64,000 nt of DNA, from contig NHZP01000088.1 in the NCBI GenBank assembly GCA_003313425.1, positions 52,670 to 116,669 on the forward strand, written 5' to 3'. Origin of the DNA: Pseudopyrenochaeta lycopersici (Eukaryota; Ascomycota; Dothideomycetes; Pleosporales; Pseudopyrenochaetaceae). Positions 34,780-49,851 of this stretch are shown piece after piece (the stretch's first letter is position 1; each line of letters opens with the position of its first letter). The notes beneath the pieces were generated by a model. The model was not told the origin of the DNA and ran no database searches. It saw only the letters and a program-made list of their open reading frames with translations. A program made the translations under genes and the position numbers.

Positions 34780-37160
34780 TCATGAGAGATTACTAATTCT
34801 CGAATCATGTGTCCAATACCGGCTTACAATTTCTAGATCTCCTTGCTCATGGAGGACCTGCTCTGCCAGCTCATTATTAATCACCTCACCGTCCTTAATA
34901 GCAAGTTGAATCCAGCTCTTTAGACACTCGCTCTGCTCTACTACCTCCGCACTAAGCTTATGTCGCTCCCCAATTATTGTACGACGCGCGCCAGAGAAGA
35001 CTCGCTCACTTTCTGCTGACATTGCTGGGATTGATAAAATATCGATAGCCATACGAGAGAGGCCGGGGAAGTTGTGTCGCTGAGTAGAATTGAGCCACCA
35101 ATCTAAAGCAGAGCCTGCTATTTTTGGTAGCCAAGTACTCTATTCATAAACTATGTTAGCTTCAACAGTATACCGTGTAGTAACCATAAACTTACATCAA
35201 TAAATCGGTCGAATTCGTCAGTAATGGACGACGGGCTAGCTGCCTCTCATAGCGGTGTCTCTCCAGCGAGTTGGTGATAGTGTCTGGATCAATTAGCTGC
35301 TGCGATTCACCTAGAATAGCCATATATTTATATTCTTTTTGCCAGAGCCTACGAGCTGCGTCGACAGCTCGATCTACTGTACCGGGATAGACCTGCTCAA
35401 CAGCATTCCATTCATCGTCAAGATACTCCCTGCGAAAACAAGGATTGAGGAGTAATGCTGCTGCGTACGCTGGCGTTCGATCGGTAAGCTTGTAATACTT
35501 ATCAAAAGCAAACCACATTGTAAGAAGCGACGCTGATAGGTTTGTATCGCCCTTATGATCAATCTGCATCCTTTTGACGTGGCCAATTAGAAAATCCATT
35601 GATTCCAGCACCTGATCAAGCGTTGTATTGTCGCGTTCGAGAACCAGCGTCGTATCGCGGAAAGGCTTGAGGACATCTCTCGTTTCAATTAATGTATCCC
35701 ACTCATCACGATCAATATTGTTTTGACCCATGTCATCCCAATTTTTATCAATAAACACCCGAATATAGCTCTCCAGCTCAATTGCGGCCTCCAGCATTGT
35801 TAGCCAGGAGTTCCAGCGTGTATCGTTGTCGCGAGGGATAATTCTATTGGCAAGTGCAATAAATTGTTGGTAGCGAGCCGGCGACCGACGAAGCCATACG
35901 GCGATATTGTGGATCTTCCCCAGTGCGCCAATCTCCCTCCACTTCGCCTGTGTAGTTTCGTCTTGATCATATTCACCTTCTGAATGAATTCCAAGGCGCT
36001 CCTCCTCCTCATGAAGCTCCTCTGCAGCCTTAATAGCTAGTTCTACCGCATCTTTGTCCTTGGTAAATAAGAAGGCTTGGCAAGCTAAGTTGAGGATATG
36101 CCCCATACATCGGATCCGGTGATGCTGGGCACTCCAGCTTTGAAAGCGGTGACTAAGCAGTCGACAGAGCTTATCATTCGAACCGTGGTTGTCCCCTGCA
36201 TGTAATAAATCAGCTAGTAAATCAGACTTAGAAGATTTTAGTGTACCAACCTGTAATGTAGCCCATCTTCTCCTCGCCAATATCATACTCATTGAGCGCC
36301 TGGAGAAACACCTCTGTCTGCTCCTCAGCACCGTGGCTATCTTTGTGCTCTCTCATCGCCAACGTACCTTTCTGCAATCGCCCGAGTTTGTCAACAAAAT
36401 GAGCCGTGAGGGCTTGATAGTATGTTTTGTTGGGAGAAGTCCAGACGTCGGTTGTAAAGTGGATTTTTGATAGAGACTCCGCGAGCTTCTGCTTAATTGC
36501 TTCCTTATGAACTTTATAAGTCTTACCTATCAGCTCGCGTACTGAAAATCGCGAGTTCTTCATAGGCCCACCGCGTTCGACAAGTGTGTAGTTCGAGATT
36601 TTCATGAGCAGGTGAAATTCGGGCCATTCGACAATCGTGTGAGGGAGATTATGGTTGACAATCATGAGAACTAGTACGTTTAACCAATCGGCGTGATTGG
36701 CGGCGTCGCGAAGGATCTTTGAGGTGTATGATTGAGCTAAGTCCTGAGCGCGTTCTTGCTGAATTTTGAAGCCAGCTGCTAGCTTGCTAACCTGTTCCTC
36801 CACTTTTGGTTTGCTACTCTCGGTATTGACGCTATGTCGATGAGACAGGTGTCGTCGAAAAGCCGTCGCGCTCGTACAGTCCTTCCTGCACCTCTTGCAG
36901 TAAAATATCTCCTGGTTCGAATTACCACGTGCTGGCCTACCCTCTGGGGGCTCGTCAAGTGCATATGCCCACAACTGCTCATCCTCTCGAGCTCTCCGAC
37001 GCCTTTTCTTTGGTATACCAGCTTGGTGATACGGGTCGTCGCGTGCAATCGTCACATCGTCAAAATCACGCGAATTAAAGTCAGTAAGAGTAGAAACGTC
37101 ATCGGCAATCTCTTCATGGGCGCGTTTAAGGCCTTTTGTAGGTCGTTGATTGTCTTCCAT
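34780..37160 (-). pseudogene. hAT transposase with introns (hAT-E), frameshifted
   Basis: Exon 1 runs from the ATG at 37160 to 36251, with a BED-like finger (YCKRCRKDC...HLSHRHS) and IHFTTDVWTSPNKTYYQAL. The intron is 36196-36250. Exon 2 continues GDNHGSNDKL and RIRCMGHILNLACQAFLF. A second intron (about GTAAGT at 35199 to an acceptor near 35145) precedes exon 3 with LSRMAIDILSIPAMSAESER and FSGARRT, ending at 34780. Near 35240-35255 the frame ends LARRPLLT, while the family-like TDEFDRFID that leads to the splice donor reads in another frame, so one base has been lost or two gained. Related to hAT-B. Confidence 0.8.
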
Positions 37161-37358: not shown

Positions 37359-37534
37359 TGTCAGATAAGAGGCATAAAAACTGAAGTATACGAATACTGC
37401 ATCGTGGACGGTATCACCTATGTATCATCGATGTATCAGGTCTGTGTTTAAAAAGGAGAGAAAACAGAACCAACGAAAAATACAATCAATTCGGATCCAC
37501 GATCATGACCAAAAAGATTCATTAAATTCTGACA
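37359..37534 (+). repeat. Copia-1 5' LTR
   Basis: 176 bp, TGTCAGATAAG...TTCTGACA. Short LTRs of this size are usual for fungal Copia elements. Confidence 0.92.
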
Positions 37535-37550
37535 ATTAAGAGTCTCACTG
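37535..37550 (+). promoter_or_regulatory. Copia-1 primer-binding site
   Basis: ATTAAGAGTCTCACTG directly follows the LTR. The same 16 bases follow the 5' LTR of Copia-2. The sequence is complementary to an anticodon arm containing GACUCUUAAUC, the pattern of tRNA-Lys(CUU), not to a tRNA 3' end. This suggests priming by a tRNA half, as known for Drosophila copia and yeast Ty5 (with initiator Met tRNA). Confidence 0.65.
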
Positions 37551-37571
37551 ACCCTATAACGAGCGAGGACC

Positions 37572-38897
37572 ATGTCTCACGCAAATATTACCGGCGTACG
37601 CGACGCTACGATCATCCTCACCGACTACACGAACTACACGCCATGGTTACTACAACTCAAAGCAAAAGCAGAGTTCCACGACGTATGGGCAATCGCAGAC
37701 CCTGATGGAACTAGAGAACCTTTGCTGGAACCGATCCCCCCAGTCCTACCACGATTAGCTGACTACGTACCGGCTGTAGTCCAACGACCGGCACCCAGCG
37801 CGTCGTCAAACTCTCGGGGTAACCGGGTTGGATCATCAAGCCAGCCAACAAGATCAAACCCGTCCCGAACCGATGCAACTCCAGCTACACCGACGAAACT
37901 ATCGGACTTATCACCTGAAAGCCAGGAAACATACAAGGCCGATCGAGACGACTACAAGGTACAGCTCGAAGCCTACAAGATCGACGAGAAGAAATACGAC
38001 AGAGAACGGGCTAACTATCGGTTACTTGCAACGCACATTCAGAGCACAGTATCAGCGCACATTCAGCGCAACTGCTGCCTCCCTGGTACCACGATTCGCC
38101 GATGGATTATTGATATCCGAAGGACAGTAGGAATCAACCCACTCGAAGAACGCCAACGAGCACGAACAAGATATCACAATGCATTGAAGCCAATGAGGAC
38201 CCCAGTAAACTGGGATATCTGGCTTGCCGAATACGATCGAGCAGCAACTGACGCTGAGACCGAAGGAGTCGCGGAGGTACAACATAATGACGACATTATA
38301 GAAGATTTCTTGTCGGCAGTGGAAAAGGTAGCACCTATGTGGGTGACTGCCTTCTCTAGCCAGGTGGCCAGAGGTGACCCAGACCATGACAGAAAAGAAA
38401 TGATGAAACTCTTCCGGGAGCATATGAGCCGCTCCTACCCACAAAAGGGCAAGCAGAAGAGCGCTTTCGCTGCTGGAGACGCTGCATACCCCGCTGGCGG
38501 TGAATCCGACCAGGGCGCACAGAGGGACGCCTCCGGTGTAGCTGAAGAAGCATCATCAGCCTTACGGGGCAAGAACCGTGGTAGAACACGGGGAAAACGC
38601 AAATTTGGGCAAAGCAGCACCAGATCCAAGCATTCCTCTCTGGAGGATACGGCGGCAGTCGAAGGCACAACATGCCATGCTTGTGAACAGCGCCACAATC
38701 TTTTCGATTGTTTCTATCTAAACGAAGATAGGGCACCTGCGTGGTTTACACCAGATTCAAGAATAGCCAAACTCGTTGAGTACAAAAGAAAGTATGACCC
38801 AGAGCTAATCAAATTATTAGACTCAAAGCGCCAACGATCAAAGACGCCGCTGATTAAGAATTCGCAAACACCAACACCCGAAGTCTTAAAAGATTGA
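37572..38897 (+). CDS. gag: Copia-1 Gag, 441 aa
   Basis: The ATG at 37572 follows the primer site by about 20 bases. The capsid-like region (YTPWLLQLKAKAEFHDVWAI; DIWLAEYDRAATDAETEGV) belongs to the UBN2/retrotrans_gag type. A zinc knuckle-like C-x2-C-x3-H-x4-C (CHACEQRHNLFDC) lies near residue 367. It ends at TGA 38895-38897, directly followed by CTA. Gag forms the virus-like particle in the cytoplasm. Confidence 0.9.
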   Translation: MSHANITGVRDATIILTDYTNYTPWLLQLKAKAEFHDVWAIADPDGTREPLLEPIPPVLPRLADYVPAVVQRPAPSASSNSRGNRVGSSSQPTRSNPSRTDATPATPTKLSDLSPESQETYKADRDDYKVQLEAYKIDEKKYDRERANYRLLATHIQSTVSAHIQRNCCLPGTTIRRWIIDIRRTVGINPLEERQRARTRYHNALKPMRTPVNWDIWLAEYDRAATDAETEGVAEVQHNDDIIEDFLSAVEKVAPMWVTAFSSQVARGDPDHDRKEMMKLFREHMSRSYPQKGKQKSAFAAGDAAYPAGGESDQGAQRDASGVAEEASSALRGKNRGRTRGKRKFGQSSTRSKHSSLEDTAAVEGTTCHACEQRHNLFDCFYLNEDRAPAWFTPDSRIAKLVEYKRKYDPELIKLLDSKRQRSKTPLIKNSQTPTPEVLKD

Positions 38898-41800
38898 CTA
38901 GAAGGAAGAGTTATATCAACAATCGAAGCCGCGTATACCGCGTCAGTGTTCTCAATGAAGAACCAACCGTATCCGCTAAAGAATGCATTCATCCTCGATT
39001 CGGGCGCGACAATACACATCTGCAACATGGCGCAACGCCTAACCCACCTCCGTCCACCTATCCCCGGTGACTGCGTGTGGACAGGCGACGCACGAATATG
39101 GATTAAAGGGTATGGCACCGTACATATCAAAGTCAAGTCACCATATGGCACAGAGATACTCCGATTAGAGAACGTTGCCTTCTGTCCGGAGATTCTATGC
39201 AACCTCGTCTCATTTAGACTACTCAGACGGCAAGGAATTTGGTGGGATAATAAGAATGAACCTACGTCGTTAAAGAGATGGGACAACTCCATCATCGCAT
39301 ACCTGACGGAAGCACACAACCAATGGGTACTCGAGCAATCAGATGCAAACGACAGTGCTTTTCACACCCGATTCAACTCTCGAACCAAGCGGTCGCCACA
39401 AAGAGCAAGTGCGATACTATGGCACAAGCGCCTAGGGCATCCAGGGCCCGCAGTGATCGAACACCTCGTCCAACAATCTGAGGGGGTGCGCATCAAAGGC
39501 GTCACTACAGTCGAGTGCGACGCATGTGGGAGAGCCAAATCAAAGCGCAGGATCCGCAGAGAACCTCGACTGAGCGAAGAAGGACCGGGAGAACGAATCG
39601 CGATCGACTTTCACGACTACGAAGTGGGGAGCTACTCAAAGGAAAAGAGCCAAATGCTTATCACTGACCGATTCTCGGCATATAACTGGGATTTCTACTT
39701 TACCGACAACAGACCAGCACGATCTATTATTCGGTTACTAGATAATTTCACTTGCTTCCTCTATACGCAGTTTAATATTTCTGTAAAAGTGATTGAGACG
39801 GACAACGAGATAGTGACCGTCAAGCCAGAAGTTAAGAGATGGTGCACGTCCAAAGGCATAAAGGTCGAGCCTTCTGCTCCTGATACCCAATCACAGAATG
39901 GCGGAGGAGAACGCTCAGGGGGTGTGATAAAAGAAAAGGCACGCACGATACGACTGGATGCTAATCTTCCCTGGGAACTATGGCCAGAAATCACAAGAGC
40001 GGCAGTATACCTGTACAATAGAACGCCGAACTACTCAAACCGCTGGAAAAGCCCATACGAGGTATTCTTCACAAGGGTCGCTGCTATGAATGGTATCGTC
40101 ACTGGACCACGGAAACCAAACCAAGCTCATCTTAAAGCATATGGCTGCAAGGCATTTGCAATGACCGACGATACCCACCGAGGAAAGTCGCGACTGCAAC
40201 GCTTGGATCCAAAGGCCTGGATTGGCTATCTTATTGGCTATCAATCTACAAACATCTACCGCGTTTGGATCCCGTCACTAGCTAAAGTTATCAGCACAAG
40301 AGACGTAGTCTTCGACGAAAGCGTAGTGTTTAGCGGCAAAACGGAAGACCTCATGGACAACCTTATGCACAACACCCTGCAGGAGATTGCAATGTGGGTG
40401 AAAACGATTGAACTGCCTACACCACCGCGACAGGAACAGCCTGAGACTGGGTCGTTCTACGAAGACGATACAATAATGGGAGAGAGTTCAAGTCCACAAG
40501 GTCAAAAGTCAAAAGGTTGCCGAAGTAGAAAAGCGATGGACTCATACCCAACGCCGCCAGACACTCCGCCACCTGTAGCTCTCCTTAGCCAGGCGTGGAC
40601 CGACGAACTTGAAGCTAATAGCATGACGACACAGGGCTCGTCAAAAACAGAACCATGGGCAGCAGCATTTATGGCCGGCACTCAAGCAGGGCACGTAGGG
40701 GAACACGAAGGCAAGCTCATTGACAAGGCACAGCTGAAGAGAATGCTGGCAAAGGGGGTGAAGCCTCACCGAAACCAATTGCCACCTCTGCCGACGACTT
40801 ACTCAAAGCTTGAAGATCATCCTCTGTACGAAATGTTCAAGGAAGCAGAACGAGAACACCTAAGGAGCCATGAACAAATGAAGTCCTGGGCTGAAGTGCC
40901 AATCACTCCCATCAAACGGAAAGGTCACCAAATATTAGACTGCAAGTGGGTGTATACCTACAAATTGGACAAACACCATCGCCTTATTAAATGCAAAGCA
41001 CGACTAGTCGTTCGCGGCGATCAGCAACGAAACATCACGTCACAAGACACATACGCAGCCACTTTAGCCAGCAGGTCTTTTCGAATGCTCATGGCAATCG
41101 CTGCCAAGTTCAACCTTGAACTCAAACAGTACGACGTTACTAACGCATTCGTGCATGCAACCATAGATAGAGAAATCTACATGAGAATGCCACGAGGATA
41201 CCAGAAGCCCGGAACGATCCTTAAGCTTGAAAAGGCACTTTACGGTCTTCGAATTTCACCGCTCCTATGGCAGAAAGAATTCGTCTCAACCCTCACCAAC
41301 TTAGGCTTCAAACAAGTGCCACATGAGGCCTGCTGCATGATTAAGGATGGCATTATCATCTTCTTTTACGTCGATGACATTATCTTAGCCTACCACCAGA
41401 AGAAGGAGGTAGAAGCTCAACAAGCTATCAAGGCTCTTCAAGAAAGATACACCTTCACAGGTGGAGAAGACCTGCAATGGTTCCTTGGCGTTGAAGTTAT
41501 CAGAGACCGAGAACAACGATTAATTCAACTCTCCCAGTTAGCCTATGCCGACAAAATCAGCAGACTTGCAGATAGGAAAGATGTCCGACATGATACCCCA
41601 ATGGCAAGCGTTGAACTCCAGCCACGCGAGGGATTAGCATCACCATCAGAAGTCAACAAATACCAGCGTAAGATTGGTTCCCTACTATTTGCCGCCGTTA
41701 CAACACGTCCTGATATCGCCTTCGCAACATCGCGCCTTGCACGCTTCCTCGTCAACCCTGGCACGGAGCATCAGGAGGCTGCTGACAGAGTCCTGCTCTA

Positions 41801-42395
41801 CCTTGCAGCGACAAAATCAAGGGCACTCCAACTGGGAGGAGGCGACAAGCTTGAAGTAGCTAGCGACGCATCATTTGGCGATAATACAGTCGATAGAAAG
41901 AGTTCGCAAGGTTATGTGATTAAGCTATTCGGTGGTCTTATTACCTGGAGAGCAAGTAAACAGGACACGGTTACTACCTCAACGACTGAAGCAGAACTGC
42001 TCGCACTCTCCCAAGTAGCAAAGGAAGCTATCTTTACCTCGCGACTTCTCAAGGAGCTCCAGATATCATTGCCGGAGTCGACCATTACAATTCAATGCGA
42101 CAATACACAGACAATTCGACTTGTTACGGAAGAGATTACCAAACTTCAAACCAAACTTCGACATGTAGACATCCACAACCATTGGCTACGACAGGAAGTA
42201 TTGCTTGGACGAATTCAAGTTAAATACGTAGAATCCTCGCAAATGCTAGCAGATGGACTTACCAAAGCGCTGCCCTCAAACAAATGGGAGAACTTTCTTA
42301 ATCAATTAGGACTGGTAAACAAGAAACCGGCCTTAGCAAAAGAGTTAAAACTCGAAGACATACAGACTCAAATAGAGGATCTGACAATCGCATAA
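38898..42395 (+). CDS. pol: Copia-1 Pol, read in the gag frame after a UGA
   Basis: The frame after the gag stop is open with no ATG for 16 codons and then runs to 42395. Order: aspartic protease (FILDSGATIHI), integrase with H-x4-H...CxxC (LWHKRLGHPG; CDACGRAKSK) and DDE core (IAIDFH; IETDNEI; NGGGERSGGVI), reverse transcriptase (QYDVTNAFVHA; FFYVDDIILA), RNase H (SDASFGDNTVDRKSSQGY; STTEAELLALSQ; CDNTQTIRL). This is Copia order, with integrase before reverse transcriptase. No internal lesion. Translation most likely requires readthrough of the UGA at 38895. Confidence 0.93.
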   Translation, partial: LEGRVISTIEAAYTASVFSMKNQPYPLKNAFILDSGATIHICNMAQRLTHLRPPIPGDCVWTGDARIWIKGYGTVHIKVKSPYGTEILRLENVAFCPEILCNLVSFRLLRRQGIWWDNKNEPTSLKRWDNSIIAYLTEAHNQWVLEQSDANDSAFHTRFNSRTKRSPQRASAILWHKRLGHPGPAVIEHLVQQSEGVRIKGVTTVECDACGRAKSKRRIRREPRLSEEGPGERIAIDFHDYEVGSYSKEKSQMLITDRFSAYNWDFYFTDNRPARSIIRLLDNFTCFLYTQFNISVKVIETDNEIVTVKPEVKRWCTSKGIKVEPSAPDTQSQNGGGERSGGVIKEKARTIRLDANLPWELWPEITRAAVYLYNRTPNYSNRWKSPYEVFFTRVAAMNGIVTGPRKPNQAHLKAYGCKAFAMTDDTHRGKSRLQRLDPKAWIGYLIGYQSTNIYRVWIPSLAKVISTRDVVFDESVVFSGKTEDLMDNLMHNTLQEIAMWVKTIELPTPPRQEQPETGSFYEDDTIMGESSSPQGQKSKGCRSRKAMDSYPTPPDTPPPVALLSQAWTDELEANSMTTQGSSKTEPWAAAFMAGTQAGHVGEHEGKLIDKAQLKRMLAKGVKPHRNQLPPLPTTYSKLEDHPLYEMFKEAEREHLRSHEQMKSWAEVPITPIKRKGHQILDCKWVYTYKLDKHHRLIKCKARLVVRGDQQRNITSQDTYAATLASRSFRMLMAIAAKFNLELKQYDVTNAFVHATIDREIYMRMPRGYQKPGTILKLEKALYGLRISPLLWQKEFVSTLTNLGFKQVPHEACCMIKDGIIIFFYVDDIILAYHQKKEVEAQQAIKALQERYTFTGGEDLQWFLGVEVIRDREQRLIQLSQLAYADKISRLADRKDVRHDTPMASVELQPREGLASPSEVNKYQRKIGSLLFAAVTTRPDIAFATSRLARFLVNPGTEHQEAADRVLLYLAATKSRALQLGGGDKLEVASDASFGDNTVDRKSSQGYVIKLFGGLITWRASKQDTVTTSTTEAELLALSQVAKEAIFTSRLLKELQISLPESTITIQCDNTQTIRLVTEEITKLQTKLRHVDIHNHWLRQEVLLGRIQVKYVESSQMLADGLTKALPSNKWENFLNQLGLVNKKPALAKELKLEDIQTQIEDLTIA

Positions 42396-42443
42396 GATAT
42401 AGGTTTGTGGCAGCTTAGAAGATCACTCTAAGCTGAGGGGGTG

Positions 42444-42618
42444 TGTCAGATAAGAGGCATAAAAACTGAAGTATACGAATACTGCATCGTGGACGGTATC
42501 ACCTATGTATCATCGATGTATCAGGTCTGTGTTTAAAAAGGAGAGAAAACAGAACCAACAAAATACAATAAATTCTGATCCACGATCATGACCAAAAAGA
42601 TTCATTAAAATTCAGACA
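42444..42618 (+). repeat. Copia-1 3' LTR
   Basis: 175 bp, same start as the 5' LTR. Differences cluster in the last 70 bases (about three substitutions and short indels). Confidence 0.92.
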
Positions 42619-42838
42619 ACTAGAAGCAAGTTAAGTTACTAGTAGTAAACTCTAACATACTATTAATAGACTGTACATACCGTACTAATAAGTATAGACT
42701 CCTACTATTATATATACTTAGCTGTACTAACCTACAGACCTTCTTCTCTGCAGGCTTCTGCTTCCTTAGTAATAAGACATAAGCAGACTACTATTAAGTA
42801 ATTGTAAACTTCCTACTTAAGATAAGGATATAATAACT
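42619..42838. other. AT-rich relic between the two Copia elements
   Basis: TA-rich sequence (TACTAGTAGTAAAC, ATAGACTGTACATA) with no open frame. It is the left part of the relic into which Copia-2 was inserted; the right part begins at 48082. Confidence 0.6.
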
Positions 42839-43012
42839 TGTCAGATAGAATGCTCAAATGCGATGAGGTATGTTGATAGGTTTTTCATTGTATTCATCAT
42901 TAAGTTCTTTGCTATTTTTTTCCTTTTTATGTAGTGTGTGTGTGCCAAGTGGTTACACCCGAGCTTTGTGCTACAATGCTGTATCGCGTACGATCGCTGC
43001 TTGTATCTGACA
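42839..43012 (-). repeat. Copia-2 3' LTR
   Basis: 174 bp, identical to the partner LTR. Preceded on the element's strand by AAGCTGAGGGGGTG (43013-43026), the polypurine tract. Confidence 0.95.
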
Positions 43013-43115: not shown

Positions 43116-46100
43116 CTACGCCTGTTCGATCTCTAGCTTCTCAATTTGGCTTTGGATCTCTTCAAGGCGTGCTGCTGTTATTTCTCTGCTTCCTGTGAGT
43201 TCTACCAGGCCCATTTGGCTTAGAAACTGTGTCCATTTGTTGGCTGGCAACGCCTTTGTAAAGCCATCAGCTAGCATGTCAGCCGATTGGACATGGATGA
43301 CCCGAATACTTCTTCTTGACACCTCCTGTCTCAGCCAATGATTGTGAATGTCCACATGCCGGAGCTTGGTTTGCAGCCGTGAGACTTCATTATTGATTAG
43401 CCGGATGGTTTGAGTGTTATCGCATTGTATCGTGATTGTGTCCTCAGGCAGATTGATTTGCAGTTCCTTAAGTAGTCGTGATATGAATATAGCTTCTTTT
43501 GCCACTTGTGATAGCGCAAGAAGCTCAGCTTCTGTAGTCGATGTTGTGACTGTATCTTGCTTACTTGCTTTCCAAGCAATCAAACCGCCGAATAACTTGA
43601 TTGTGTATCCCTGCGAGCTCTTTCTATCGATTGTGTTGTCTGCAAACGAGGCATCGCTCGCTACTTCAAGACAGTCATCTCCACCAAGCTCAAGGGCTCT
43701 TGATTTGGTGCTTTGGAGGTAAAGGAGAACTCGGTCAGCTGCTGTATGGTGCTCAGTGCCAGGGTTCATAAGGAATCGGGCCAGTCTTGATGTTGCAAAG
43801 GCGATGTCCGGTCGGGTTGTAACAGCTGCATATAGCAGAGATCCAATCTTGCGTTGGTACTTGTTGATTTCTGATGGAGTAGCTAGGCCGTCTCGGGGCT
43901 TTAGTTCAATGGCTGCCATTGGAGTGTCATGTCGGATGTCTTTTCTGCCGACTAAGCGGCTGATCTTGTCCGCGTATGCTGCTTGTGATAGCTGGATCTT
44001 GCGCTGCTCTCGGTTCCTAATGACTTCAACTCCAAGAAACCATTGAAGATCATCTCCACCTGTGATAGAGTACTTGTCTCTAAGATGTTGAATCGCTTGC
44101 TGGGCTTCAGTCTCCTTCTGCTTGCTGTATGCAAGAATGATATCGTCGACATAGAAGAATATGATAATTCCGTCTTTAATTAGGCAGCATGGCTCGTGAG
44201 GGACGTTCTGAAAGCCAAGTTTCTTGAGGGTTGATGTGAATTCCTTTTGCCAGAGGAGAGGGGAGATCCGGAGACCGTATAAAGCCTTGTTTACCTGGAG
44301 TATCGTTCCGGGCTTTCGGTAGCCGTGGGGCATTCTCATGTATACTTCTTGATCCATGGTTGCGTGGACAAAGGCGTTCGTGACATCGTATTGCTTGAGC
44401 TCCAGATTGTAGTGAGCTGCTATTGCCATCAGCATTCGGAATGAACGGCTGGCGAGAGTAGCTGCGTAAGTGTCTTGTGAGGTAATATTCCTTTGTTGGT
44501 CACCTCGGACGACGAGTCGCGCCTTACACTTCAGCAAGTGATGGTTCTTGTCTAGTTTGTAGGTATACACCCACATACAATCGAGGATCTGTTGTCTTGT
44601 CAGTTTGATCTTCTTTATTGGCACTTCGGACCATGATTTCATCTTGTGATGGCTTTTAAGGTGCTCTTTCTCAGCTTCCTTGAACCATTCGCAGAGAGGA
44701 TGTTTCTCAATTCCTGTGTGAGAAGTTGGCAGCGGCGGTAACTCGCTTTGATGTGGCTTTAATCCTTGGGCCAACATTCGCTTCATCTGGGCCTTGTCGA
44801 TTATCTTCCCATTGTGGGTTCCAACGTGCCCTGCTTGGGTGCCCGCTATAAAGGCCGCTTCCCAAGGAATCGTTTTTGATGAGCCAGATGTTGTTTGGCT
44901 ATCTCCTTGATGCTCGCCAGATAAAAGTTGCGTAAGCAGAGCTACTGGCGGCGGAGTAGTTGGCGGAGAGGGGTAGGTGTAGTTGATCCTCCTCCCTTGA
45001 TAGTAACCCGGTTGGTTACCTTGCTGGGTCGTTTCAGAGTCTTGAATGGTGTCGTCTTCATAAAACGTTTGGGTCTCTGGTTCCTCATGGGTTGGTTCTG
45101 GCAGTTCAACTGTCCTCATCCATGCAGCTATCTCGTTTAGCGTGCTGTGCATAAGGTTGTCCATAAGGTCTTCCGTCTTCCCGTCAAATATTAATTCTTC
45201 ATCAAACACTACATCTCGAGTGCTGATTACTTTGGCCATGGATGGAATCCAGATTCTGTAGATATTGGAGGATCGGTATCCAACGAGGTATCCTATCCAT
45301 GCTCTGGGGTCGAGACGTTGGAGTCGCGATTTGCCTCGAAGTGTATCGTCGGTAAGGGCGAATGCCTTACAACCGTATGCCTTAAGATGGGCTTGATTCG
45401 GTTTCCGCGGGGAGGTAATTATGCCATCGTACAGGGCTGCCGTAGTGAAGAAAACTTCGTAGGGTGATTTCCAGGCGTTTGAGTAGTTTGGCGTTCGATT
45501 GTATAGGTACACTGCTGCTCGTACGATCTCTGGCCACAGTTCCCATGGTAGGTTTGCGTCTAATCGTATCGTGCGCGATTTGTCTTTTACCACACCCCCT
45601 GAGCGTTCAGCTCCACCGTTCTGGGATTGAGTGTCTGGGGCGGAAGGCTCCAATCGAATTGAGCGCGCGGTACACCATCTTGAAACTTCGGGTTTAGTAG
45701 TCGCGATCTCTCCGTCGCATTCGATGACCTTGACTGTAATGTTGTACTGCTTCTTCAGGAAGCGGACGATGATATCCAGGAACCCGATAATGGACTTTCC
45801 GAGTCGATTGTCCTTGAAGTAGAAATCCCACATGAAACCAGAGTACCGATCAGTAACTAGCATCTGACTCTTCTCTTTTGTTGAACTTCCTTCCTCGTAC
45901 GTGTGGAAGTCAATAGCGAGTCTTTCCCCAGGCCCTTGGTCGTGTACTCGGGGTGTGCGTCTTATCTGGCGTTTAGTCTTGGCTCTTCCACATGCGTTGC
46001 ATTGTACAGTGGTGATTCCTTTGATGCGCACCCCCTCAGATTGTTGGACTAAGTGCTCGATTGCTGCTGGTCCTGGGTGTCCCATTCGCCTATGCCACCG

Positions 46101-46622
46101 CATGGCGTCGGCCTTCTGTGCTGATCGCTTGGTGCGGGAGTTGATTGCTTTCGTGAAGAAGGCGGCTTCGCCCTTGTCCTGGTGTTCGAGTATCCATTGG
46201 CCATGTGCCTCCTTCAGGTGTGTGATTGTAGTGTTATCCCGTCTCTTCAGAGCAGTAGGGTCACTCTGGTTGTCCCACCACATCCCTTGCTGTCTGAGTA
46301 GTCTAAAAGAGACCAAATTACACAGGATGTCTGGACACCAGGCTACGTTGCGCAGTTCGAGTTTAGTCGGCCCGTTCGGTCCGATGAGGTCGAGTAGGAC
46401 TGATCCGTATCCTTGTATCCAGATCCGTGTATTTCCGGCCCAAATACAGTCTGCAGCCGTAGGCGGACTGAGGTCTCGGACTCGGTTACGATCGTTCGTG
46501 ATGTGTATCGTGGATCCTGAGTCCAAAATAAACGAGTGCCTCAGTGGATAGTCTGAAGCTTCTGCTCGAAATGATGCAGCAGTTAAGGCAGCATTAATCG
46601 TTGAAATCTTCCGTCCCTCTAG
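43116..46622 (-). CDS. pol: Copia-2 Pol, read in the gag frame after a UGA
   Basis: Begins at the codon after the gag UGA (46623-46625) with LEGRKISTINAALTAASFRA and no ATG before the protease. Protease FILDSGSTIHI; integrase zinc site WHRRMGHPGPA...CNACGRAK; integrase core LAIDFH, IECDGEI, NGGAERSGGVV; reverse transcriptase QYDVTNAFVHA and FFYVDDIILA; RNase H SDASFADNTIDRKSSQGY, STTEAELLALSQ, CDNTQTIRL. Ends at 43116. It has the same architecture as Copia-1 and is clearly diverged from it at the protein level, so the shared stop context is not just recent copying. All catalytic motifs are intact. Confidence 0.93.
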   Translation of the reverse strand, partial: LEGRKISTINAALTAASFRAEASDYPLRHSFILDSGSTIHITNDRNRVRDLSPPTAADCIWAGNTRIWIQGYGSVLLDLIGPNGPTKLELRNVAWCPDILCNLVSFRLLRQQGMWWDNQSDPTALKRRDNTTITHLKEAHGQWILEHQDKGEAAFFTKAINSRTKRSAQKADAMRWHRRMGHPGPAAIEHLVQQSEGVRIKGITTVQCNACGRAKTKRQIRRTPRVHDQGPGERLAIDFHTYEEGSSTKEKSQMLVTDRYSGFMWDFYFKDNRLGKSIIGFLDIIVRFLKKQYNITVKVIECDGEIATTKPEVSRWCTARSIRLEPSAPDTQSQNGGAERSGGVVKDKSRTIRLDANLPWELWPEIVRAAVYLYNRTPNYSNAWKSPYEVFFTTAALYDGIITSPRKPNQAHLKAYGCKAFALTDDTLRGKSRLQRLDPRAWIGYLVGYRSSNIYRIWIPSMAKVISTRDVVFDEELIFDGKTEDLMDNLMHSTLNEIAAWMRTVELPEPTHEEPETQTFYEDDTIQDSETTQQGNQPGYYQGRRINYTYPSPPTTPPPVALLTQLLSGEHQGDSQTTSGSSKTIPWEAAFIAGTQAGHVGTHNGKIIDKAQMKRMLAQGLKPHQSELPPLPTSHTGIEKHPLCEWFKEAEKEHLKSHHKMKSWSEVPIKKIKLTRQQILDCMWVYTYKLDKNHHLLKCKARLVVRGDQQRNITSQDTYAATLASRSFRMLMAIAAHYNLELKQYDVTNAFVHATMDQEVYMRMPHGYRKPGTILQVNKALYGLRISPLLWQKEFTSTLKKLGFQNVPHEPCCLIKDGIIIFFYVDDIILAYSKQKETEAQQAIQHLRDKYSITGGDDLQWFLGVEVIRNREQRKIQLSQAAYADKISRLVGRKDIRHDTPMAAIELKPRDGLATPSEINKYQRKIGSLLYAAVTTRPDIAFATSRLARFLMNPGTEHHTAADRVLLYLQSTKSRALELGGDDCLEVASDASFADNTIDRKSSQGYTIKLFGGLIAWKASKQDTVTTSTTEAELLALSQVAKEAIFISRLLKELQINLPEDTITIQCDNTQTIRLINNEVSRLQTKLRHVDIHNHWLRQEVSRRSIRVIHVQSADMLADGFTKALPANKWTQFLSQMGLVELTGSREITAARLEEIQSQIEKLEIEQA

Positions 46623-47870
46623 TCACTCCGTAGACATTTCGGGTGTCTGAGACGTTGACGTTTTGATGGTTGGTGTTTTTGTGCGAGCTCTTTTCCCGCT
46701 CCTAAGCTGTTCTTGCAGGTCAGCGTCATGTTCCAGTCGGTGCCTTACCATCGCTGCGATTCCTGAGCGAGGTGTGAACCACTCTGGTGCTTTATTTGTG
46801 TGGACATAGTAACAATTCTCTAGTCCATGGCGTTGTTCACAAGCAGGGCATTTTACTCCTTCAGCTGCCGCTGTATCCCCTGTTGAGGACTGCTTGGATA
46901 TGGTATTTTGACCAAAAGTTCGTTTTTGACGAGGTCTTCCCCGACTCCCCTGTGTGGTTGGAGTGGATGGTGCGCTATCGGCAACGTGAGAGGCGTCCCT
47001 GTCAGTGCCCGGGGTGGATTCACCACCAGCAGCGAGAAATGAGGTGTTCCCTACAGTAAAGGCGCCCCTCTGCTGCTTCCCCTTTAAAGGGTGGTACTTG
47101 CTCATGTGTTCTCGGAAGCGTTTCATCATTTCTTTGCGAGTCATATTTTGTTCTCGCCGACCATAGTCCTGGAATGTCGTTGCCCAGGTTGGTGCTATCT
47201 TCATGACTGAGTCAAGAAAGTCTTGTACGATATCTTGTATATTCTGTATTTCAGCGACCCCTTCGGTCTCCGCGTTCGTTGCGGCGTGGTCGTATTCCGA
47301 GAGCCAGGTGTCCCAACTCCCGGGCTGTCTCATTGGTTTGAGGGCGGCTAGGTATCGGTGACGTGCTCGCAACCGTTCTTCTTCGGCGTCTATTCCGACG
47401 GTTTGTTTCAGGCTGATGAGCCACGTTCGAATTGGTTCACCTGGCTTACAGCAGTTCTTCATGAGGTGGGGTGATACTGATTGTTGGATATATACCACCA
47501 CTTTGTCCATATTCGCCCGTTCTTCGCGATAGTCTCTGTCTGCTATCTTGTATGACTCAAGGCGGAGTTTGTAGAAGTCGGTGTCCTCCTTCCACGCCTT
47601 GAGGCCGTTTGTTGAGAGCTCGGACGGGGCCTCTGGTCGCAGAGGTGCTCCATTGTCGTCGATACCAAGCGTCGTCTTTCTCTCGTACTTCGTGATGTCT
47701 GGCTCGGTTGGGATTCTTGGTTTCGTTTTCAGAGGAGTATTTTGAGTAGGATCTATCTGTTCCCACACGTCAAGGGAGACGCATCGCGTTTCTAGCTGTT
47801 GCAGCCATGGCGTGTACGTCGTGTAGTCCATTAGGAGTACGGTTGGTTCTCGCATTGTCGACAGCGACAT
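46623..47870 (-). CDS. gag: Copia-2 Gag, 415 aa
   Basis: Starts at ATG 47870 just after the primer site and ends at the single UGA 46623-46625. It has the retrotrans_gag-like fold (YTPWLQQLETRCVSLDVWEQ; SWDTWLSEYDHAATNAETEG) and a zinc knuckle-like CPACEQRHGLENC near residue 346. Ends ...QTPEMSTE. Same frame as pol. Confidence 0.92.
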   Translation of the reverse strand: MSLSTMREPTVLLMDYTTYTPWLQQLETRCVSLDVWEQIDPTQNTPLKTKPRIPTEPDITKYERKTTLGIDDNGAPLRPEAPSELSTNGLKAWKEDTDFYKLRLESYKIADRDYREERANMDKVVVYIQQSVSPHLMKNCCKPGEPIRTWLISLKQTVGIDAEEERLRARHRYLAALKPMRQPGSWDTWLSEYDHAATNAETEGVAEIQNIQDIVQDFLDSVMKIAPTWATTFQDYGRREQNMTRKEMMKRFREHMSKYHPLKGKQQRGAFTVGNTSFLAAGGESTPGTDRDASHVADSAPSTPTTQGSRGRPRQKRTFGQNTISKQSSTGDTAAAEGVKCPACEQRHGLENCYYVHTNKAPEWFTPRSGIAAMVRHRLEHDADLQEQLRSGKRARTKTPTIKTSTSQTPEMSTE

Positions 47871-47891: not shown

Positions 47892-47907
47892 CAGTGAGAC
47901 TCTTAAT
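47892..47907 (-). promoter_or_regulatory. Copia-2 primer-binding site
   Basis: ATTAAGAGTCTCACTG on the minus strand, directly after the 5' LTR; identical to that of Copia-1. Confidence 0.65.
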
Positions 47908-48081
47908 TGTCAGATAGAATGCTCAAATGCGATGAGGTATGTTGATAGGTTTTTCATTGTATTCATCATTAAGTTCTTTGCTATTTTTTTCCTTTTTATG
48001 TAGTGTGTGTGTGCCAAGTGGTTACACCCGAGCTTTGTGCTACAATGCTGTATCGCGTACGATCGCTGCTTGTATCTGACA
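47908..48081 (-). repeat. Copia-2 5' LTR
   Basis: 174 bp, TGTCAGATACAAGC...TCTGACA on the element's strand. Contains the promoter and R/U5 of the element. Identical to 42839-43012. Confidence 0.95.
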
Positions 48082-49851
48082 TAACTACAGGTATTTATTA
48101 GTAATTAGGAAGAGGCGTTAAAGATAGCAGCTCGCTCGCTACTTCTAGGAGTCCCTTAGCTTCTATGCGTGTAGCATATTAATAAGAACGTCTAGATAAA
48201 GGCTTAGCAGACCTAGTAAGACGCTAATAGCGCAATAAAAGAGGAGAAGTAGAGGATTATTAAACACAGGGCTGCGTTTATAAAGCGTTAGACTTAGGTA
48301 TACCCTATGCTAATCGCCTAAGAGACTTTAAAGAAGCCGTCCTCTAAAAAAGTTGCTTACAGAACTAACTAGGGCAGCTCGTCTACGCAAAGAGACTACT
48401 AGAGTTCTAGCTAAAGTAGAATAATCTGCTTAAAGACTACAGCTACTAGTAGGAACTCTGCAGATACCTGTAAGACAACTAATACCTTACACGCACTAAG
48501 TAGGCAGCTGCTTAAACTTCTTACTACTAACACTATAATACTATTATAAGTTCGCCTGTTAAAGGAATGCATAAGGTCCTAAAGGACTACCTTATAACTT
48601 TAAGAGGCGACTTACTACGCGTTGTAGGGAGGATTAAGCAAATAGTCAGGAGTTAATACAATAAGTACAGAAAGGAACTTACTTCCTCTAAACATAGCGT
48701 TAAGTTCAGGCATAAGCTAGAGGTAATACTATTCCTGCCTCCTAGCATCTATAACGTGCTGACGCTACTAGCGATTAAGCGCATTATGCAACAGGATCTG
48801 CTGCTCTAGAAGGAGCAGAGAGAGCGTTGCAGCAGACATCCTTATTTAGGCCTATTTAAGAAAACAAATAGCCTTCTGTGTCGCTATACGCTGCAAGACG
48901 TAAGGAGATCTAGTTTAACGCTATGACTGAATTACCTCTACGATAACTACTAGCGGTATTAACGTAAATAAGGGCTATTAATCTGCCTGTCTCTAAGGCT
49001 ATATTAGTCTGTCCTTAAGCCTCTCACCGCTTAAATAAGAGGTAGGCTGAGGAGGAACGAGTTATTAACTTGACGAGATCTATCAGCTTTCGAACGACGC
49101 GTGCCCCCTTCTATTCCTTACTTCCAACCTTACCTTTAACCTTAGGGTTAAACACTCGCTAAAGCCCTGCGATAAGTAAACACCTCTGTTACTATGTCGA
49201 TTCCTACATCTATGCTAAATGTAAATCCTATAACTACCTGTGTATCTGTATCGACCCCTGCACCTGCTCCTATACCTCCTCCCCTATTCCTCTGTTCGTC
49301 TCCGCCTGTAGTAGTTACTGTGTCTGTTACTATAGGTCTACCTCCTGCTTAGCAACTACTGTTATTAGAAGAGTTCCTAGCTGACATTAAACGTTGACAG
49401 TGTTAGCCTATTCTATATAAGTGTAATAATATAATCTTAGCGATTAACTTCCTAGCAGAGACAGGGCAGGAAGATAATCCTGCAGAGTTAGTTAAAGCAC
49501 AGAATATAGCGCTCGCTATATAAGGGCTGTTTACTTCCTGTACCCCTATAATAGTATAGAACTATTACTTTAGAGATATAGAAGCTTTCTACGCAGAGAG
49601 ATTCGCGTAAGTAGATGCGTAAAATTCTCTGCTTAAGCTTCAGGATATACTAAGACAGCGTCCTAAGCGTGCTGCAGCAGCGACAGCTTCTAAAGCTTAG
49701 AAAGATCTTAGCCCGCGCAAGAGAAAACGACGTTAATAGTAGATAGATTTAATAAGACAAAGTTAATAGTTTAAGCCACTAAAGACGTCGAAGTGTCGTT
49801 ACATAGCGTTTTGTAATTTATTTTTTTGCGCTAGTAGAGTTATGGCTAGCA
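48082..49851. other. Heavily decayed transposon relic, RIP-like
   Basis: About 1.75 kb without any open frame of 60 codons on either strand, dense in TA, TAG and TAA. Short stretches still look coding-derived (for example around 48840-48930), so it is probably an ancient element destroyed by C-to-T mutation. I could not identify the family. Confidence 0.6.

Follow-up and report, generated by a model that had tools for sequence, protein, structure and literature searches.

How does a retrotransposon make its Pol polyprotein when the frame that encodes it begins directly behind a stop codon? The question is raised by Copia-1, a long terminal repeat (LTR) element at positions 37359-42618 of a 64,000-nucleotide (nt) stretch (the window) of contig NHZP01000088.1 of the fungus Pseudopyrenochaeta lycopersici, with the layout LTR, primer binding site, gag, pol, LTR. 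Its gag open reading frame (ORF) ends in TGA and is followed, in the same frame, by CTA GAA GGA AGA and a pol frame that stays open until the stop at 42393-42395 (Table 1). A single in-frame stop between gag and pol, with pol in the same frame and lacking its own start, is the arrangement found in elements that express pol by reading through the gag stop. The original prediction had recognised this gag end, the shared frame and the context TGA CTA GAA GGA, all of which are borne out here, and had proposed programmed readthrough that sets the ratio of Gag to Gag-Pol. None of the observations that the original prediction would have counted as a refutation turned up in this genome. We reach the same reading, to which we assign a probability of roughly 0.88 from comparative sequence evidence; it draws support from the conservation of the stop in clean copies and from the leakiness of UGA CU(A) in a fungus (PMC4207609).

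An in-frame stop in two divergent elements

The Pol of Copia-1 matches the Pfam families Pol_BBD, gag_pre-integrs, rve, SH3_retrovirus and RVT_2, the rve match lying under the Pfam cut-off (24.3 vs 32.6), and Gag has no Pfam matches. The order gag_pre-integrs, rve, SH3_retrovirus, RVT_2 is that of Ty1/Copia elements, with a reverse transcriptase of the RVT_2 type. The LTR pair is present, and no target duplication was seen around it. The earlier statement that no ATG occurs for 16 codons before the protease region also holds, the first in-frame ATG behind the gag stop being codon 20 (38955), 14 codons ahead of the protease motif DSG.

A second element, Copia-2, which the original prediction left unmentioned, lies tail to tail with Copia-1 on the minus strand (48081-42839), and has both LTRs of the form TG...CA and a short target duplication, as expected of Ty1/Copia elements (AGTTA, five bases, at 48082-48086 and 42834-42838). 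The rve family is absent from the Pfam listing of its Pol. Between the two elements gag identity is 48.7% and pol identity 72.4%; at synonymous sites the NG86 divergence (dS) is 2.7 for gag and not computable for pol, that is, near or beyond saturation. That so diverged an element carries its own TGA CTA GAG GGA is a first sign that the junction stop is not accidental, and the identical LTRs and target duplication of Copia-2 indicate that a recent insertion carries the in-frame stop.

Table 1. Coordinates of the two Copia elements in the window, with the basis of each assignment
Feature	Position	Strand	Basis or remark
Copia-1 5' LTR (TGTCAG...CTGACA)	37359..37534	+	local alignment with 3' LTR: few differences, small indels
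Copia-1 primer binding site ATTAAGAGTCT, immediately 3' of LTR	37535..37545	+	sequence
Copia-1 gag ORF, 441 aa + TGA; CX2CX3HX4C knuckle close to C-terminus	37572..38897	+	ORF; homologous proteins
Copia-1 gag stop TGA, putative leaky stop	38895..38897	+	frame, context, conservation among copies
CTAG, 3' context of the putative leaky stop	38898..38901	+	clean copies of five families: CTA/CTT then G
Copia-1 pol ORF, 1165 codons, no start codon at 5' end; integrase precedes reverse transcriptase	38898..42395	+	ORF, Pfam
Copia-1 protease DSG, codons 34-36 past stop	38997..39005	+	spacing same in all five families
Copia-1 3' LTR	42444..42618	+	LTR alignment
Copia-2 5' LTR, identical to its 3' LTR	47908..48081	-	LTR alignment
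Copia-2 primer binding site ATTAAGAGTCT	47897..47907	-	sequence
Copia-2 gag ORF, 415 aa + TGA	46623..47870	-	ORF
Copia-2 junction TGA CTA GAG GGA	46614..46625	-	sequence
Copia-2 pol ORF, 1168 codons; first 113 codons without in-frame ATG	43116..46622	-	ORF, Pfam
Copia-2 3' LTR	42839..43012	-	LTR alignment

The interval between the two elements (42619-42833) is TA-rich by eye, as expected from repeat-induced point mutation (RIP). On its other side Copia-1 adjoins three overlapping or adjacent minus-strand ORFs (34780-37160), which we take to resemble a broken hAT-type transposase.

The junction in five families of one genome

Every junction compared at the DNA level comes from this one genome, assembled as 188 contigs totalling 62.7 Mb. 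It contains the exact 12-mer TGACTAGAAGGA 47 times, as against six times for the reversed letter order, an excess beyond chance. Of these occurrences, 33 fall at Copia junctions and 14 outside any listed junction; none of the seven of these 14 inspected by tblastn encodes gag or pol. DNA searches with the two junctions yielded 40 matches each (40 of 81 and 40 of 53 candidates being scored), and a protein-level search seeded with the first part of pol yielded 120 (120 of 298 candidates being scored). The junction was read at all 80 DNA loci and at 20 others, chosen among the protein matches for open frames or distance. A 5'-truncated locus (L093) and three duplicate entries were left out of the set, in which 99 distinct junctions remain. 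They fall into five families: A, which includes Copia-1 (TGA CTA GAA GGA), B (TGA CTA GAA GGT), C, which includes Copia-2 (TGA CTA GAG GGA), D (TGA CTT GAA GGT) and E (TGA CTA GAA GGA). The four other families share 59-85% protein identity with Copia-1 over 334 residues.

At the stop position the 99 junctions read TGA in 67 cases and TAA in 32, and a sense codon in none. A junction is called clean here when the 270 nt on each side of it contain no additional in-frame stop; all 53 clean junctions (25 of family A, 3 of B, 16 of C, 7 of D and 2 of E) have TGA, followed by CTAG in 46 and CTTG in seven, so that the four other families keep TGA CT(A/T)G in their clean copies just as Copia-1 does. 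These 53 are far from independent, as they represent just 20 distinct 403-nt haplotypes. The codon before the stop is GAT in 30, GAG in 16 and GAC in seven. Among the 46 non-clean junctions, 14 have TGA (11 CTAG, 2 CTTG, 1 CTTA) and 32 have TAA (31 CTAG, 1 CTTA); the association of TGA with clean copies gives p ~2e-15 by Fisher's exact test, for copies that are far from independent. Twenty further short stretches, weaker matches outside the 99, read TGA in 2, TAA in 17 and AAA in 1, the register of two of the TAA calls (L127, L128) having been set by eye. The AAA, in a degraded family-E copy (L125; G000:C91:41231-41351), is the sole sense codon seen at this position.

These counts bear directly on the possibility that the elements normally have one fused ORF and that the stop is simply a nonsense mutation of a copy that is dead or hitch-hiking. 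Fungal Copia families with a single ORF do exist, for example Copia-1_CH and Copia-2_CH (PMC4112212), but a stop present in 53/53 clean junctions of five families, replaced by a sense codon in 0/99, and carried by an insertion as recent as Copia-2 leaves that explanation next to no credibility.

The TAA copies bear RIP-like mutation. The median TpA/ApT ratio, a sign of RIP, rises from 0.76 in clean copies to 1.06 in the other TGA copies and 1.78 in the TAA copies, a gradient such as RIP would leave, and the gag TGA itself contains TpG, the RIP target, in the favoured TpGpA context. In family A a RIP-type change is seen at the stop in 12/16 copies vs 37/93 at other TpGpA sites (under a different filter, 12/17 vs 105/367 at all other TpG sites), and in family C in 16/17 vs 77/85. 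We do not claim that RIP targets the stop specially, because the TpGpA context accounts for family C and for part of family A, and because copies may share descent.

Conservation continues into pol. Directly past the stop, the representatives of all five families have LEGR without variation, and codon 34 is the first of the protease DSG in 12 of 13 representatives, the decayed locus L065 having DLG instead. In clean copies the TGA, the CT and the subsequent G are constant and the third base is A or T, giving UGA CUAG in four families and UGA CUUG in one (D). CTA makes up 17-18% of leucine codons in the two pol genes (18/107 in Copia-1, 19/106 in Copia-2), and the chance of finding it in at least four of five families at that rate is about 0.004, by hand arithmetic that treats the families as independent, though they are related.

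Several observations weigh against readthrough or lessen the force of this conservation. Four other invariant leucine positions use 2, 3, 3 and 4 codons vs two at codon 1, which is thus no less variable than one of them, and the C, T and G past the stop are partly imposed by the conserved Leu-Glu; the evidence from this single codon is therefore modest, and the weight rests on the TGA itself. Two decayed family-D copies read CTTA, having lost the G. A single genome supplied all the junctions, and its families and copies are related by descent. The host phosphoglycerate kinase gene ends in TAG, so that use of the motif by the host finds no support in that gene; in some fungi the phosphoglycerate kinase gene uses such readthrough signals. 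Finally, in four gene models (P0053, P0134, P0136 and P0159, among the best 120 of 494 Pol homologues), all from annotated genomes of Pyrenophora or Fusarium, at least 160 residues precede the junction and the model continues into pol.

At the end of the host phosphoglycerate kinase gene (L129:70-90, G000:C7), a GTAAGT overlaps the end of the frame and could permit an alternatively spliced C-terminus; other fungi produce peroxisomal isoforms in this way.

Splicing, internal starts and RNA structure

The four gene models that connect upstream sequence to pol also count in favour of splicing, by which an intron containing the UGA would be removed in frame from part of the transcripts to give Gag-Pol, with CTAG as the 3' splice site. 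A YAG acceptor is present within CTAG in four of the five families, and every family but B has a donor-like GT(A/G)NG site further upstream (-81 in D, -103 in A, and -123 in both C and E, which share GTAAGG); splicing was also considered for the Candida albicans element Tca2 by Forbes et al. (PMC2194720). On the other side, a scan of seven representatives for GT-AG paths of 39-300 nt that cross the stop in frame and contain a CTRAY motif found no such intron (0/7), and no donor candidate was seen for family B in the ~290 nt examined. The donor-like positions differ among A, D and C/E, family D has CTTG rather than CTAG, and splicing does not explain why all 53 clean junctions have TGA and never TAA or TAG. 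We regard splicing as very unlikely. The Pyrenophora model P0053 lacks the end of gag and its expected stop, probably because the in-frame stop was removed as part of a predicted intron.

Homologous proteins give a view of other species. Gag has 43 homologues, the named ones from Didymella, Paraphaeosphaeria and Periconia (Pleosporales, within Pezizomycotina). When 40 of these were aligned with Copia-1, three short proteins being omitted, all 41 Gags terminated 47-61 residues past one conserved position, with Asp or Glu as the last residue in 28. For Pol, 116 of the best 120 of the 494 homologues align within the first 300 residues. Outside the Fusarium relatives, these protein-level data show a stop at the same place as in Copia-1, whichever stop codon it may be. 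Searches of viral and genome contig collections, which were not made for fungi, by gag and pol alignment, pol fragments and DNA patterns returned no DNA relatives in other species. Where the junction would fall, several predicted proteins of a more distant pol clade (P0138, P0143, P0145, P0147 and P0154) open with MR or VR. This is a hint of a conserved [A/G]TGAG, perhaps one that ends gag in a different frame.

Pol might instead be made by re-initiation or from an internal start, using its own start codon or a transcript from an internal promoter. An ATG does precede DSG in Copia-1 (codon 20) and family B (codon 13), and a minor internal promoter has been reported at the Tca2 junction (PMC2194720). 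No such ATG is conserved ahead of the protease, however: the first in-frame ATG is codon 114 in family C and codon 151 in family D, there is none in the stretch of family E that was examined, and L034, a 601-nt match 96% like Copia-1, lacks the ATG at codon 20. The invariant LEGR right past the stop would also be needless for a start further downstream, and this explanation is highly improbable.

A further alternative keeps readthrough but replaces the short context as its signal by a pseudoknot or long-range fold further downstream, such as murine leukaemia virus (MuLV) has and Tca2 has been proposed to have. Eight representatives were folded in five windows and seven sequences were combined in a consensus fold, all limited to nested structures, and no shared RNA structure emerged near the stop. 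Three of the eight (B1, -3.0; C, -2.2; E, -2.5) have z < -2 in the window 5-150 nt past the stop and so lend the idea some support, but the other five range from -0.7 to +1.6 (Copia-1, +1.6), no representative falls under -1.9 in the four other windows, and the consensus fold has 12 weak pairs, the closest ~98 nt past the stop. A requirement for such a fold is, in our estimate, unlikely. The letters past the stop begin with CT and are then purine-rich (AGAAGGA).

The frame, the stop, its context and their conservation in five families and 53/53 clean junctions are observed; the occurrence of readthrough, its rate, the amino acid inserted and the dispensability of RNA structure are what we infer. 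Under programmed readthrough, most ribosomes would end translation at the UGA that closes gag, yielding the particle protein Gag. Because termination is weak at UGA followed by CU(A/U)G, a minority would accept a near-cognate tRNA at the UGA and go on in frame through protease, integrase and reverse transcriptase. The product would be a Gag-Pol fusion, and one mRNA would yield Gag in excess of Gag-Pol. The short 3' context is probably signal enough by itself and would have no need for RNA structure.

A single filamentous fungus thus provides a large natural set of UGA-CU(A/U)G junctions, many of them within young-looking copies, and the expression of Pol by Copia elements with an in-frame stop becomes testable with a short reporter. 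For annotation there is a warning that the stop at the end of gag may be mistaken for an intron, as has probably happened in P0053.

Relation to known readthrough signals and elements

In Ustilago, CUA past UGA is sufficient for readthrough, UAA or UAG in place of UGA lowers it, and the first two nucleotides weigh most (PMC4207609). UGA-CUAG is efficient in human cells, where the OPRL1 signal works about sixfold worse with UAA and threefold worse with UAG (PMC4132726). The junctions described here share with Tpi1 and other Ustilago genes, and with mammalian UGA-CUAG, the same stop and 3' letters, a third base of lesser weight and a following G, and the conserved letters of the five families, including the looser third base, fit the rules from both systems. 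In the Ustilago and mammalian cases, by contrast, readthrough extends a protein at its C-terminus, for example by a peroxisomal tag; here it would add the whole Pol polyprotein.

Among retroelements, the fission-yeast Ty3/Gypsy elements Tosmo1-3, Tcry1 and Tj1 have an invariant GAA TGA CT at gag-pol, with A or G as the next base (PMC10085805), and Tj1 without the gag stop has virtually no activity, the stop being required for efficient integration (PMC4600332). As in our families, an in-frame TGA followed by CTA or CTG is conserved between gag and pol, and is interpreted as readthrough. Theirs are Ty3/Gypsy elements with GAA before the stop; ours are Ty1/Copia elements with GAT, GAG or GAC, in a distant host lineage. 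Tca2, which the original prediction cited as a precedent, is likewise a Copia element in which TGA separates gag from a pol of the same frame (PMC2194720). That likeness stands, but Tca2 has a purine-rich spacer and a proposed pseudoknot where our elements have CT(A/T)G and showed no shared structure, and it is a weak precedent because its junction did not direct readthrough in Saccharomyces cerevisiae.

The primer binding site of both elements, ATTAAGAGTCT, is identical to that of FunCo1, where it is complementary to an internal part of tRNA-Lys (PMC5445492), and by this match Copia-1 and Copia-2 appear to be FunCo1-like Ty1/Copia elements. High copy number is another shared trait, and FunCo1 is a clade of Pezizomycotina, the group to which the three named Pleosporales sources of Gag relatives belong. 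The main text of the FunCo1 paper does not contain the term 'stop codon', the accessible part of PMC3248453 has nothing on readthrough, and we found no printed account of readthrough in the FunCo1 clade in the open-licence PubMed Central (PMC) literature. Since the fission-yeast Ty3/Gypsy elements have been reported with the same signal, its kind is already known; what is new is its presence in a Copia group for which we found no description of it. More tentatively, and at somewhat less than even odds, UGA-CUN-G readthrough may be the general Gag-Pol switch of FunCo1, one of two Copia clades that dominate in Pezizomycotina, and may have arisen independently of the fission-yeast Ty3/Gypsy elements. 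Fungal retroelements would then have repeatedly used one structure-free weak spot of termination, a switch that RIP would often close by turning TGA into TAA, the least leaky stop in the human-cell assay.

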